A stretch of DNA of 12,830 nucleotides, taken from positions 1 through 12,830 of the forward strand of contig DHLU01000186.1 of NCBI GenBank assembly GCA_002405435.1, read 5' to 3'. This stretch comes from Flavobacteriales bacterium UBA4660 (lineage in GTDB: Bacteria > Bacteroidota > Bacteroidia > Flavobacteriales_D > Sanyastnellaceae). Under the pieces are notes generated by a model that saw only the letters and a program-made list of their open reading frames with translations, made no database searches and was not told the origin of the DNA. Position 1 is the stretch's first letter. Each line of letters starts with the position of its first letter. Both the position numbers and the translations under genes were made by a program. Shown one piece after another: positions 2,268 to 10,504 of this stretch.

Positions 2268-3362
2268 TCAGAAATAATGCACGGGGTTGGTTACCACCGC
2301 AGTTAAATGGGTCGCGAAAGTATTAAATTTTCGACGAAGCCTGTCGGCGAGGAGTCCGATGGTAAACTGCTCACTCTCATAATGACCGATATCGGCTATA
2401 ATAATTTGATTATCAGCATCAAAGAACTCGTGGTATTTAAAGTCGGCGCTGACGAATACGTCGGCACCCTCAGCGATTGCCCTCGTGAGCAGGAAACTGC
2501 CGGCGCCTCCGCACAGCGCCACATTTTGTATTGTTTCGCGGCACAGGTGCGTGTGCCGGATGCACGCCAATTGCAGGTCTTGCTTCAGCGCAGCCAGAAA
2601 ATGTGCAGCCGGCACAGGTTCGGGAAGGCGTCCGATCAGGCCCGCGCCCCAGTCGCCCGAGGTATTTTCCAATGCGTACACGTCGTAGGCGACTTCTTCA
2701 TAGGGATGGGCGGCCATCATGGCGCCGAGCACCGCCTGCAGCCGCCAACGCGGCATAATTACTTCAATACGTGTTTCGGCCTCCTGGTGTATGCTGCCCG
2801 GGGTACCCACAAAAGGATGCGTATCGGGACCTCCGCGGAAGGTACCCGAACCCTCGAGGTTGAAACTGCATTGGTCATAAGCGCCGATGCTGCCTGCTCC
2901 CGCGCTGAACATGGCACTTCTTACGCTGTCCGCGCTGTCATGGGGCACAAAAACGACAAGTTTGCACAGCCGGTCTTTCAGTGGGCTCAGCACCCTTGTT
3001 TCTTGCAAGCCGATACGGGCGGCCAGGGCTGCATTGACCCCTTCGCGCACATGGTCGAGGTTGGTGTGAATGGCGTATATGGCGATGTCGTGTTTGAGCG
3101 CCATAATGACCGTTCGCTCCACATAGTTGCGACCGGTGAGTGACTTCAGTCCGCGGAACACGATAGGGTGATGCGCCACCACCAGGTTGCATCCCAGGCT
3201 GATCGCCTCCTGCAGCACGGCTTCGGTGCAATCGAGCGCTACCAGCACCCCGGTGACCTCCATGCCTGGCGTTCCGGCTATGAGTCCGCTGTTGTCGTAG
3301 TCCTCCTGAAGGGCGGGGGGAGCGAGTTCCTCGAGCCAGCCGATAATACTTTTGAGTTGCAT
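2268..3362 (-). CDS. Nif3-like dinuclear metal centre hexameric protein (GTP cyclohydrolase 1 type 2/Nif3 family)
   Basis: This 364-residue protein starts MQLKSIIGWLEELAPP, a canonical Nif3 N-terminus. Candidate metal ligands are all present: H64-H65 in VAHHPIVF, D103 in HTNLDHVREGVN, and H327 and E331 in DIGHYESEQ. GLKSLTGRNYVER follows the His pair as usual. The length suits the long form of the family, in which a PII/CutA-like domain (roughly residues 125-235) is inserted between the two Nif3 halves. These proteins form toroidal hexamers with two metals per subunit; the cellular role is not settled. The frame stays open upstream to 3818, but that stretch is antisense to lpxK and lacks family similarity, so the start at 3362 is preferred. 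It heads an operon with the coiled-coil gene 2 bases downstream, a pairing I recall as frequent in Bacteroidota, and is divergent from lpxK with only 27 bases between starts. Confidence 0.93.
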   Translation of the reverse strand: MQLKSIIGWLEELAPPALQEDYDNSGLIAGTPGMEVTGVLVALDCTEAVLQEAISLGCNLVVAHHPIVFRGLKSLTGRNYVERTVIMALKHDIAIYAIHTNLDHVREGVNAALAARIGLQETRVLSPLKDRLCKLVVFVPHDSADSVRSAMFSAGAGSIGAYDQCSFNLEGSGTFRGGPDTHPFVGTPGSIHQEAETRIEVIMPRWRLQAVLGAMMAAHPYEEVAYDVYALENTSGDWGAGLIGRLPEPVPAAHFLAALKQDLQLACIRHTHLCRETIQNVALCGGAGSFLLTRAIAEGADVFVSADFKYHEFFDADNQIIIADIGHYESEQFTIGLLADRLRRKFNTFATHLTAVVTNPVHYF

Positions 3363-3366
3363 TGCG

Positions 3367-3385
3367 TTTCTTTGGCACAAAGTAA
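3367..3385. promoter_or_regulatory. Possible overlapping divergent -7 elements (nif3 / lpxK)
   Basis: The 27-base gap holds an imperfect palindrome centred on CTTTGGCACAAAG. Read on the plus strand, 3367-3374 is TTTCTTTG; read on the minus strand, 3385-3378 is TTACTTTG. Each differs by one base from the Bacteroidota -7 consensus TAnnTTTG. If both are used, the promoters face into each other and both transcripts would have leaders of roughly 10 bases. I saw no clear TTG -33 element at the usual distance on either strand, so this is tentative; the promoters may instead lie inside the opposite coding regions. Confidence 0.28.
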
Positions 3386-3389
3386 ATCG

Positions 3390-4430
3390 ATGAAGCCCCT
3401 TCAGGTTCTGCTCTATCCATTTTCGCTGCTCTACGGCCTCGGCCTTGTGGTTCGCAACGGGCTGTATGACCTGGGCTGGATGGCCAGCCGGAGGGCCGCA
3501 CTTCCCACCGTGGTGGTAGGCAACCTGAGCGTGGGCGGATCGGGAAAAACCCCAATGGTCGAATGGCTCTGTGCACGGCTCAGTGTGCCCTGCAAGCCGG
3601 CTGTGCTCTCGAGGGGCTATGGAAGAAAAACTGAGGGTTTTCTCTGGGTAAGGCCCGGTATGCCGAGTTCCGACACGGGCGATGAACCGCTGCAGATTGC
3701 CCGCAAATACGGCCAGGTGCCTGTGGCTGTCTGCGAAGATCGGTTGGCGGGTATTGACCGGATTGCCGCAGAGCGACCCGGCATAAACCTTGTGCTGCTG
3801 GACGACGCCTACCAGCACCGTAAACTGAAGGCCGATGTGTATGTCCTGCTGACGGAATACGGACTAACCTGGGCCGACGACTACCTGTTGCCCGCAGGCC
3901 GCCTCCGCGACCTGCGCGCTCAACGCAGGCGGGCCGCAGCCGTAGTGGTTACCAAGTGTCCCGGTCACCTCTCGCCGGAAGCGCAATCCGCATACCGCCA
4001 GCGGCTGAAACTCTCTCCCGGCCAGGCGCTCTTTTTTTCTTCACTCACCTATGAAAGGGCGCAACACGTCGCTGGTCCGGCTGCTACCCTGCAAGCGGGT
4101 GATGCCATAACCGCCTTTGCCGGTATAGCCCGCCCGGACGCCTTTCAGGCACACCTGGCTTCGGCCTATGTCCTTAAAAAATTCAAAACCTTTGCCGATC
4201 ACCGTCCTTTTACCCCCGACCAACTGCAGCGGCTCGCAGATGATTGCGTTACCTTTGCGGGCCCTGCGGGGAAAATGGTGTGCACCGAAAAAGACGCCGT
4301 CCGAATCGGTCACCTGACAGCATCGGTGGAATGGAAAATTCCACTCTTCTGTATTCCCGTTGGCACAACCTTCCTTCACGGCCAAGACCCCGTTTCGCTC
4401 ATCACCGGGCGGCTCGGCAACGGGAAGTGA
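3390..4430 (+). CDS. lpxK: Tetraacyldisaccharide 4'-kinase
   Basis: LpxK phosphorylates the 4' position of the tetraacyl-disaccharide-1-phosphate lipid A precursor at the inner membrane, giving lipid IVA. The 346-residue protein has the expected hydrophobic N-terminal helix (about 5-25), the Walker A region GNLSVGGSGKTP at 44-55, SRGYGR at about 74-79, GDEP at 97-100 (D98 matches the catalytic Asp position described for this family), LDDAYQHR at about 137-144, LLPAGRLRD at 166-174 and, near the C-terminus, TEKDAVRI. The frame is open for 222 bases upstream, but that part is antisense to nif3; MKPLQVLLYPFSLLYG is the normal LpxK start. The gene is first in a plus-strand run, 9 bases before gatB. 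Its presence implies a lipopolysaccharide-bearing outer membrane. Confidence 0.96.
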   Translation: MKPLQVLLYPFSLLYGLGLVVRNGLYDLGWMASRRAALPTVVVGNLSVGGSGKTPMVEWLCARLSVPCKPAVLSRGYGRKTEGFLWVRPGMPSSDTGDEPLQIARKYGQVPVAVCEDRLAGIDRIAAERPGINLVLLDDAYQHRKLKADVYVLLTEYGLTWADDYLLPAGRLRDLRAQRRRAAAVVVTKCPGHLSPEAQSAYRQRLKLSPGQALFFSSLTYERAQHVAGPAATLQAGDAITAFAGIARPDAFQAHLASAYVLKKFKTFADHRPFTPDQLQRLADDCVTFAGPAGKMVCTEKDAVRIGHLTASVEWKIPLFCIPVGTTFLHGQDPVSLITGRLGNGK

Positions 4431-8119: not shown

Positions 8120-9556
8120 ATGGGTAAAAATCTTGTAATCGTTGAGTCGCCGGCCAAGGCAAAGACCATTGAAGGATATCTCGGGAAGGACTTCGTGGTG
8201 AAGTCAAGTTACGGCCATGTCCGCGACCTGCCGAAAAATGACGTGGCCATTAACATAGGCAATGACTTTGCTCCGGTGTATGAGGTGAGCGAAGACAAAA
8301 AGGAGGTGGTGAAGGAACTGAAGAAACTCGCTTCGAAATCTGAGACCGTATGGCTGGCCACGGATGAGGACCGCGAAGGAGAAGCCATATCCTGGCACCT
8401 GGCCGAGGCATTGGGCCTCGACATCACCAGCACCCGCCGTATTGTCTTTCACGAGATTACCAAAAAAGCTATCCAGTCTGCCATAGAGAAACCCCGAACG
8501 ATAGACATTGACCTGGTCAATGCCCAGCAAGCCCGCCGCCTGCTCGACAGGCTGGTGGGTTTTGAACTGAGCCCCGTGCTGTGGAAGAAGGTCAAACAGG
8601 GCCTCAGCGCCGGACGTGTGCAGAGTGTTGCCGTACGCATCATTGTGGAGCGAGAGCGCGAAATCGAACAGTTCAGGTCGAGCACTTTCTTCAATATCCG
8701 TGCAGGATTTGACCTGGGAACCGCTACGCTCAGGGCCGAGTTGTCGCGAAAAATTACAGACCGCCAGGAAGCGGAAGCTTTCCTGAGCCGCTGCATGGGC
8801 GCCAGTTTCCGCATTGCCTCGATTGAAACCAAACCCGGCAAGCGCACCCCCGCGCCGCCCTTTACTACTTCTACCCTGCAGCAGGAAGCCGGCCGCAAAC
8901 TTGGTTTTAGTGTAAGCCGCACGATGGTAGTGGCACAGAAACTATACGAGAGCGGAAAGATCACCTATATGCGTACCGACAGCGTCAACCTGAGTGATTT
9001 CGCGCTGGATGCTGCCCGGACGGAGATCACGCGGGCGTTTGGAGAACGCTATTCGAAAGCCCGTCAGTTTACCTCTAAGAGCAAGGGGGCCCAGGAAGCG
9101 CACGAAGCCATACGGCCCACCGATATGGGTGTGCGTGAAGTAGCGGGCGACCCCGCAGAGCAGCGCCTGTATGACCTGATCTGGAAACGCACGGTGGCCT
9201 CACAGATGGCGGATGCCGAACTCGAAAAAACTACCGCCACTGTCGAGATCAGCACCATGAAAGATGTGTTGCTCGCCCGGGGTGAGGTAATCCGTTTCGA
9301 CGGGTTTCTGAAGCTCTACCTCGAGGGTTCAGATGAAGACGACAACGACGATGGCAGCAGCACGATGCTGCCTCCCATCCAGGAAGGCCAGTCGCTGACC
9401 CTCGCAGAGATGACAGCCACACAGCGCTTTACCCAAAAACCACCCCGATACACGGAAGCCAGTCTGGTAAAGCGGCTCGAAGAACTGGGCATAGGAAGGC
9501 CTTCCACCTATGCGCCTACGATTTCCACCATACAGCAGCGCGAATACATCGACTAA
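8120..9556 (+). CDS. topA: TopA N-terminal part (Toprim and catalytic core), ends at premature TAA
   Basis: The 478 residues cover the Toprim domain (about 1-115; NLVIVESPAKAKTIEGY with catalytic Glu9, and TDEDREGE at 81-88 carrying the metal-binding acidic residues) and most of the type IA core: NAQQARRLLDRLVGFELSP at about 134-152, GLSAGRVQSVAVRIIV at 161-176, PFTTSTLQQEA at 247-257, and ITYMRTDS at 281-288 with the DNA-cleaving tyrosine Y283. HEAIRPT follows at about 328-334. The piece stops just after GRPSTYAPTISTIQQREYID (459-478). It therefore lacks the last part of the core that closes the toroid (the LFPTDIGMVVNDFL region) and all C-terminal DNA-binding repeats. Alone it would probably not relax DNA. 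The ATG at 8120 follows AGAGGGAC, a possible ribosome site. Confidence 0.9.
   Translation: MGKNLVIVESPAKAKTIEGYLGKDFVVKSSYGHVRDLPKNDVAINIGNDFAPVYEVSEDKKEVVKELKKLASKSETVWLATDEDREGEAISWHLAEALGLDITSTRRIVFHEITKKAIQSAIEKPRTIDIDLVNAQQARRLLDRLVGFELSPVLWKKVKQGLSAGRVQSVAVRIIVEREREIEQFRSSTFFNIRAGFDLGTATLRAELSRKITDRQEAEAFLSRCMGASFRIASIETKPGKRTPAPPFTTSTLQQEAGRKLGFSVSRTMVVAQKLYESGKITYMRTDSVNLSDFALDAARTEITRAFGERYSKARQFTSKSKGAQEAHEAIRPTDMGVREVAGDPAEQRLYDLIWKRTVASQMADAELEKTTATVEISTMKDVLLARGEVIRFDGFLKLYLEGSDEDDNDDGSSTMLPPIQEGQSLTLAEMTATQRFTQKPPRYTEASLVKRLEELGIGRPSTYAPTISTIQQREYID
9554..9556 (+). other. In-frame premature ochre codon in topA
   Basis: TAA in the context GAC-TAA-AAA-GAC-AAA-GAG, in the same frame as the coding sequence before and after it. 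One substitution (AAA to TAA) explains it. The flanking codons encode conserved TopA sequence on both sides, so no insertion or deletion is involved. Confidence 0.9.
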
Positions 9557-9592
9557 AAAGACAAAGAGGGAACGCCGCGTGTATTCGAAATA

Positions 9593-10504
9593 ATGACCCT
9601 GCGCAACCAGCAACTGACGCGGGAGGAAAAGACGGAAAACACCGGTGCCGAAAAGTCCAAGCTCTTCCCCACGGATATCGGCATGGTGGTCAACGATTTT
9701 CTGGTTTCGCAGTTTCCCCGGATTCTCGACTACGGCTTTACCGCCGCGGTAGAGGCCGAATTTGACGACATCGCCGAGGGCAAGTTGCGCTGGCAGGAGA
9801 TGCTGCACAGGTTTTACCATCCCTTTCACAAAGATGTGGAGGAGACCATTGAGCGGGCGGCACGGCAAACCGGCGAACGCGAGCTGGGTACCGATCCGAA
9901 ATCGGGCAAACCCGTGCTCGTGCGCATTGCGCGTTTCGGCCCGGTGGTGCAAATAGGCGGCAGTGAAGACGAAGAAAAAAAATACGCCTCACTGCTGAAG
10001 GGCCAGAGTATCGGCACCATCACCCTGGAAGAAGCCCTGCGGTTGTTTGACCTCCCGCGCACCCTCGGAGAATACCAGGGACAACCGGTATCGGCCGGTA
10101 TCGGACGTTTTGGTCCCTTTGTGCGGTGGGGAAGCACCTATGCCTCGCTCCGGGTGCGTGAAGGCGATGATCCTCATACGGTAGAACTGGACCGCGCCGT
10201 GAAACTCATTGAAGACAAAATCAACGGCATCAATGCCAACGATATTCAGAAGTTTGAGGAACGCCCCGATATCAAGGTAGTGCGCGGCCGTTTCGGACCT
10301 TATATCAAATGCGGCGACGACAACTATAAACTGCCCAAGGGAGCCGATGCGGAAAAGATCACGCTGGCAGAAATTGTGTCCATTATTGAAGATCCGGCCA
10401 ACAAACCCTCGGGAAAAAAACCGGTGCGGAAGTTTGCGAAGAAAGGGACGGGCGGAGAAAAAACCCTCAAGAAGGCTGCCGCCAGAAAGCCGGCCCCCAA
10501 ATAG
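9593..10504 (+). CDS. topA: TopA C-terminal part (end of core plus C-terminal repeats), separated by the TAA
   Basis: The coding frame really continues from 9557; ATG 9593 is the first methionine after the stop and gives 303 residues. LFPTDIGMVVNDFL (24-37), FTAAVEAEFDDIAEG and the W...L..FY..F pattern up to about residue 78 are the end of the type IA topoisomerase core. Three topoisomerase C-terminal repeats follow, each with a (G/A)RFGP core: ARFGPVVQIG (113-122), GRFGPFVRWG (171-180) and GRFGPYIKCG (232-241). These repeats bind DNA in relatives. The tail (about 271-303) is basic and Lys/Pro/Ala-rich. There is no Cys4 zinc ribbon. The TAG at 10502 is followed in frame by SVKKKK and another TAG at 10523. 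Expression as an independent protein would need reinitiation at 9593, for which no ribosome site is evident. Confidence 0.85.
   Translation: MTLRNQQLTREEKTENTGAEKSKLFPTDIGMVVNDFLVSQFPRILDYGFTAAVEAEFDDIAEGKLRWQEMLHRFYHPFHKDVEETIERAARQTGERELGTDPKSGKPVLVRIARFGPVVQIGGSEDEEKKYASLLKGQSIGTITLEEALRLFDLPRTLGEYQGQPVSAGIGRFGPFVRWGSTYASLRVREGDDPHTVELDRAVKLIEDKINGINANDIQKFEERPDIKVVRGRFGPYIKCGDDNYKLPKGADAEKITLAEIVSIIEDPANKPSGKKPVRKFAKKGTGGEKTLKKAAARKPAPK

Follow-up and report, generated by a model that had tools for sequence, protein, structure and literature searches.

An In-Frame TAA within topA of a Flavobacteriales Draft Genome Is Probably a Consensus Error

We analyzed a 12,830-base contig of a Flavobacteriales draft genome (G000), here called the window in the sense of this whole stretch of DNA, in which topA is divided by an in-frame TAA. 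Comparison of assembled sequences rather than of reads leads us to regard this TAA as a sequence or consensus error, with a probability of about 0.8. Error is favored because no relative scored has the TAA and because further conserved genes of this assembly are broken as well, by TAA, TAG, and TGA alike. The topA stop would be an ordinary case, a probable consensus error in a gene that is intact in relatives. We rank a real, recent nonsense mutation next and find little support for readthrough, recoding, or a two-piece enzyme. An earlier note on this DNA had not decided between error, fresh mutation, readthrough, and a two-piece enzyme; the evidence now favors error.

An in-frame TAA divides an otherwise conserved topA

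The TAA at 9554-9556 lies on the + strand, in the same frame as the open reading frame that starts at ATG 8120. The features of the gene, with the corresponding residues of relatives and of its nearest homologue (P0001), are as follows.

8120..9556, + strand: topA upstream piece, 478 aa from ATG to the in-frame TAA; contains Toprim plus the greater part of the type IA core, with the YMRTDS motif
9554..9556, + strand: in-frame TAA; of the 110 relatives' loci scored, 106 have Lys and 4 have Arg
9557..10504, + strand: topA downstream piece, 315 aa to TAG; core end followed by three C-terminal repeats; its first ATG, at 9593, is in frame and 12 codons past the TAA
10502..10504, + strand: terminal TAG of the window's topA; Lys at the same position in P0001
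10505..10525, + strand: in-frame tail past the TAG; the last six residues of P0001, then TAG

In profile searches, the upstream piece matches TIGR01051 over positions 1-507 of 632 (E 9e-191) and the Pfam families Toprim and Topoisom_bac (2-357). For the downstream piece, the matches are Topoisom_bac (361-410), NF006451 (511-790), and three stretches of Toprim_C_rpt, and the profile coordinates of the two pieces adjoin across the TAA, in order and in one frame. These matches bear out what the earlier note had described, namely an in-frame TAA in an otherwise conserved topA, with Toprim and the catalytic-motif part upstream and the end of the core and the C-terminal repeats downstream. The Tyr of YMRTDS is presumably the catalytic Tyr. 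Assuming equal use of all codons, 315 open codons past the TAA would be expected by chance with a probability of ~3e-7. Residue 510 of E. coli TopA (1ecl) aligns to window residue 477, just ahead of the TAA, in a region that we take to be the core domain; on this alignment, the TAA is placed within the TopA core fragment.

The nearest homologue, P0001, is an unbroken protein of 801 aa that is 96% identical over the whole length; it has five member sequences, the longest contig among them spanning 245,692 bases. Its alignment with the window is gapless, with 30 residue differences; in addition, the TAA and the terminal TAG both stand at Lys sites of P0001, and both sit within A-rich runs. The note's description of the stop as single thus holds for the inside of the conserved gene, where there is one TAA, and fails at its end, where the TAG also corresponds to Lys. 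Since the column of this terminal TAG is variable among homologues (Lys in 82 and Arg in 31 of the 119 best-scoring ones), its presence in the window may be natural and harmless.

The differences from P0001 are equally sparse before the TAA (19/478) and after it (11/315), and none of the 237 columns that are invariant in 29 relatives is changed in the window. On these two grounds, we conclude that topA is not decayed. That the rest showed no decay, as had been stated, is therefore accurate for topA but not for the draft genome, in which single stops also break other household genes (see below).

Two genes elsewhere in the window also deserve mention. At 2268-3818 on the - strand lies what we take to be a NIF3-like gene, whose longest open reading frame begins at a GTG far upstream of the conserved-looking part; its true start is probably an internal ATG. 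At 802-2265 on the - strand, a 487-aa protein carries a long Ala/Lys/Pro-rich N-terminal stretch, followed by a part that seems to resemble the coiled-coil zinc-ribbon type.

The TAA column in relatives

We searched for TopA in 60 genomes, including the window's own, and obtained a match in 59, that is, in 58 of the 59 relatives. Loci were taken from 29 of those 58 relatives and from the best 80 of 576 further loci, two sets that may overlap. Across both strands, 108 of the 109 loci could be scored at the TAA column, the one left out (L053) being cut by a contig end; the column holds Lys in 104 of them, Arg in 4, and a stop in none. The Lys codons are AAA in 57/108 and AAG in 47/108 of the loci with codons counted, in agreement with the earlier note, according to which homologues commonly have Lys here. 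Two further genomes, G056 and G041, also have Lys, which brings the totals to 106 Lys and 4 Arg among 110 loci. The comparison with relatives that the note had suggested thus finds the TAA in 0/110 loci. Stops had been counted inside the TopA of G033, G056, and G041; in all three they lie at the C-terminal ends and not at the TAA column. In the TopA matches of the remaining genomes searched, no internal stops were reported.

Database proteins give the same picture. The TAA column is Lys in the 120 best of 7999 proteins scored (P0001 and 119 others). A 478-aa truncated product (P0241, one member) is among the proteins listed, and there it comes from this 12,830-base contig alone. The 303-aa open reading frame that starts past the TAA is not among the best 120 proteins, the closest there being 72% identical. 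A split shared with relatives, as a two-piece type IA enzyme might show, was seen in 0/110 loci and in 0/120 best proteins; a stop conserved at this site, as readthrough or recoding might leave, was likewise seen in 0/110 loci.

Two observations on individual relatives were made along the way. The TopA at locus L031, titled Chryseobacterium gleum, is 78% identical to the window's upstream piece; other near relatives, unlike L031, are named uncultured Flavobacteriales, and the label of L031 may be wrong. In genome G046, the TopA match is divided between two contigs (residues 1-344 on one, 384-765 on the other), probably through a contig break.

The host draft genome

The host assembly is a 2.80 Mb draft in 261 contigs, 78.6% complete, and no congener was among the relatives returned. 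A second topA or topB, for which the earlier note had proposed a search, did not appear: a Topoisom_bac family search of this 78.6% complete draft found the window's gene only. For closer study, we sampled 729 kb, consisting of the window and 80 further stretches, six of them entirely N. This sample contains 128 short N runs (median 140) in 53 contigs; two control genomes have none (G008, 306 kb) and one long run (G012). We take the N runs for scaffold gaps, although in part they could be masked stretches. The window itself has no N run. The sample, 26% of the draft, holds three tRNAs, all ordinary.

Other conserved genes of the draft are interrupted

The sample was scanned with a periodic Markov model for stops flanked by coding-like sequence before and after, with the ten following codons free of ATG; a scan by codon score only had discriminated poorly and was replaced by this one. 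The scan score cannot separate a broken gene from two neighbors, so the pieces on either side of each stop were searched apart. Fifteen in-frame stops were shortlisted in the draft (20.6 per Mb), that of topA included. Similar lone stops in other conserved genes, as assembly error would lead one to expect, were indeed present: 7 of the other 14 interrupt conserved genes, with TAA, TAG, and TGA all represented. For five of the 14, both pieces match one family in order.

Aldehyde dehydrogenase (L131): Aldedh 14-303 and 308-450
MoaA (L173): Radical_SAM 3-89 and 99-161
RarA (L189): AAA 1-21 and 39-127
PBP2 (L142): TIGR03423 2-70 and 187-467, an NCBIfam match below the model's curated cut-off
Amidohydrolase (L161): NF051886 6-65 and 303-397, an NCBIfam match below the model's curated cut-off

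In two more, MurA (L123) and CorA (L175), the downstream piece starts inside an NCBIfam profile (at 31 and 49, respectively) and the upstream piece is without a match. The upstream MurA piece also gave no match against the PDB; at 60 aa, it is probably too short. The remaining seven comprise a PKD protein with weak evidence of interruption, three stops that part clearly different neighboring genes, and three for which one piece has no match at all and no break is shown.

Relatives read through the positions of these stops with sense codons, as seen in 19/19 loci for MurA, 18/18 loci examined for RarA, and 8/8 examined (of 14 loci) for CorA. For MoaA, a good match was found in 10/19 relatives, each an open frame of 327-343 aa without stops. 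RarA has no good match in the near relative G008 (99% complete) and is present in the other 18 relatives searched. Counting topA together with the seven to eight other interrupted genes in 729 kb, the rate is ~11-12 per Mb, and at such a rate, one interruption falling in topA needs no special cause.

We also looked for other signs of poor sequence. At otherwise invariant columns, MurA, RarA, CorA, and MoaA of the draft have odd residues within the range of their relatives. Aldehyde dehydrogenase (7/179 columns changed, second highest of 20) and PBP2 (8/78, highest of 20) stand out, with N runs contributing in both. General missense noise was thus not clearly seen, as 4/6 other interrupted genes lie within the relatives' range. 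The aldehyde dehydrogenase gene seemed to have lost its natural stop, an effect that we ascribe to an N run. Clustering of stops at gaps or contig ends was not adopted either: nine stops lie at a median of 892 bases from a gap or contig end, compared with 1248 for random points, and these are bare medians to which no significance is attached.

As controls, we scanned two genomes better assembled than the draft, the one-contig G012 (400 kb) and G008 (306 kb), for 706 kb together. Four stops were shortlisted in G012 (10.0 per Mb) and three in G008 (9.8 per Mb). None of the six that were searched (one in G012 was left out) interrupts a gene: four separate different genes, and two, without a match on one or both pieces, are uninformative. 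One of the four pairs of different genes has rhodanese domains on both sides, but these are whole domains in different proteins. The comparison is therefore 7/14 interrupted in the draft versus 0/4 informative stops in the controls, which represent two better-assembled genomes.

Weighing the explanations

An error could have arisen as follows. In a scaffolded metagenome assembly that was probably thinly covered, a single wrong base would have entered the consensus and given TAA in place of a sense codon, while in the cell itself topA is probably an ordinary gene without interruption, coding for some 794-801 residues. The other stops of the draft would likewise reflect errors of sequencing or consensus, not the organism. 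Both murA and topA are normally needed for growth, so that loss of both in a living lineage is unlikely. Counted against error are the 0/237 odd residues in topA, the four other interrupted genes that stay within the range of their relatives, and the lack of N runs in the window. Alternatively, the sampled strain, or part of its population, could have a genuine nonsense mutation, either harmful or compensated elsewhere and too recent for decay: the sequence is undecayed on both sides of the TAA, nothing at the sequence level forbids such a change, and a consensus can fix a minority allele. We nevertheless consider it unlikely, as topA is normally essential, the 78.6% complete draft yielded no second topA or topB, and stops in several other conserved genes are hard to explain by the biology of one lineage.

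Far less probable are the readings in which the organism carries the TAA and yet makes a working topoisomerase I, either because the two pieces are translated separately or because an amino acid is inserted at stops. A working TopA assembled from the upstream piece, with Toprim and the active site, and a downstream piece begun at ATG 9593 would draw on the conservation of both pieces, on the in-frame ATG 12 codons past the TAA, and on the precedent of type IA enzymes made of two polypeptides, the reverse gyrases that are naturally split in Nanoarchaeum equitans and Methanopyrus kandleri (PMC8185306). It seems very improbable given that a stop at this column is absent from all relatives scored, that the break would lie inside the core (near E. 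coli TopA residue 510, window residue 477), and that a start at ATG 9593 drops the first 12 residues of the downstream piece. We hold functional readthrough or recoding, with Lys inserted at both TAA and TAG, to be just as doubtful. The Lys sites of P0001 at both stops, the A-rich runs around them, and Lys at the RarA stop column in 5/18 relatives would fit such insertion; Lys at the corresponding column in 0/19 MurA and 0/8 examined CorA relatives, the presence of TGA among the stops, and the lack of a topA-column stop in any relative scored argue against it. Lys-specific recoding was dropped as the main reading on account of MurA, CorA, and TGA. No suppressor-like tRNA is among the three tRNAs of the sample, which makes for a weak test. 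Were the TAA real, the break in the core of an essential enzyme, seen together with the other interrupted genes, would suggest readthrough or assembly from subunits, neither of which this bacterium is known for, and amino acid insertion at stops would also explain those other genes. If it is an artefact, in line with the consensus error that we prefer, the case is a warning that a lone in-frame stop in a gapped draft should be judged by how often such stops occur in the rest of the assembly.

Comparison with known systems

The split reverse gyrases noted above resemble the window's gene in being a type IA enzyme of two polypeptides, provided that both window pieces are made; they are archaeal reverse gyrases (PMC8185306), whereas the window's gene has one in-frame stop that occurs in no relative scored. 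Bacterial TopA (TIGR01051 / NF006451) is the closer likeness: the window's gene has its layout, with Toprim, the type IA core with YMRTDS, and the C-terminal repeats following in order and in one frame across the two pieces. It departs from bacterial TopA in that the reading frame is not uninterrupted, the sequence as given having one TAA (9554-9556) inside the core that is absent from the relatives scored. Literature on just such nonsense artefacts yielded nothing on point among the matches listed. Nonsense artefacts of draft metagenome assemblies show up as isolated stops that interrupt conserved genes of a gapped draft while homologues elsewhere are intact. The present case shares these features, lone stops, a gapped draft, and intact homologues, and no feature was found to distinguish it from them.
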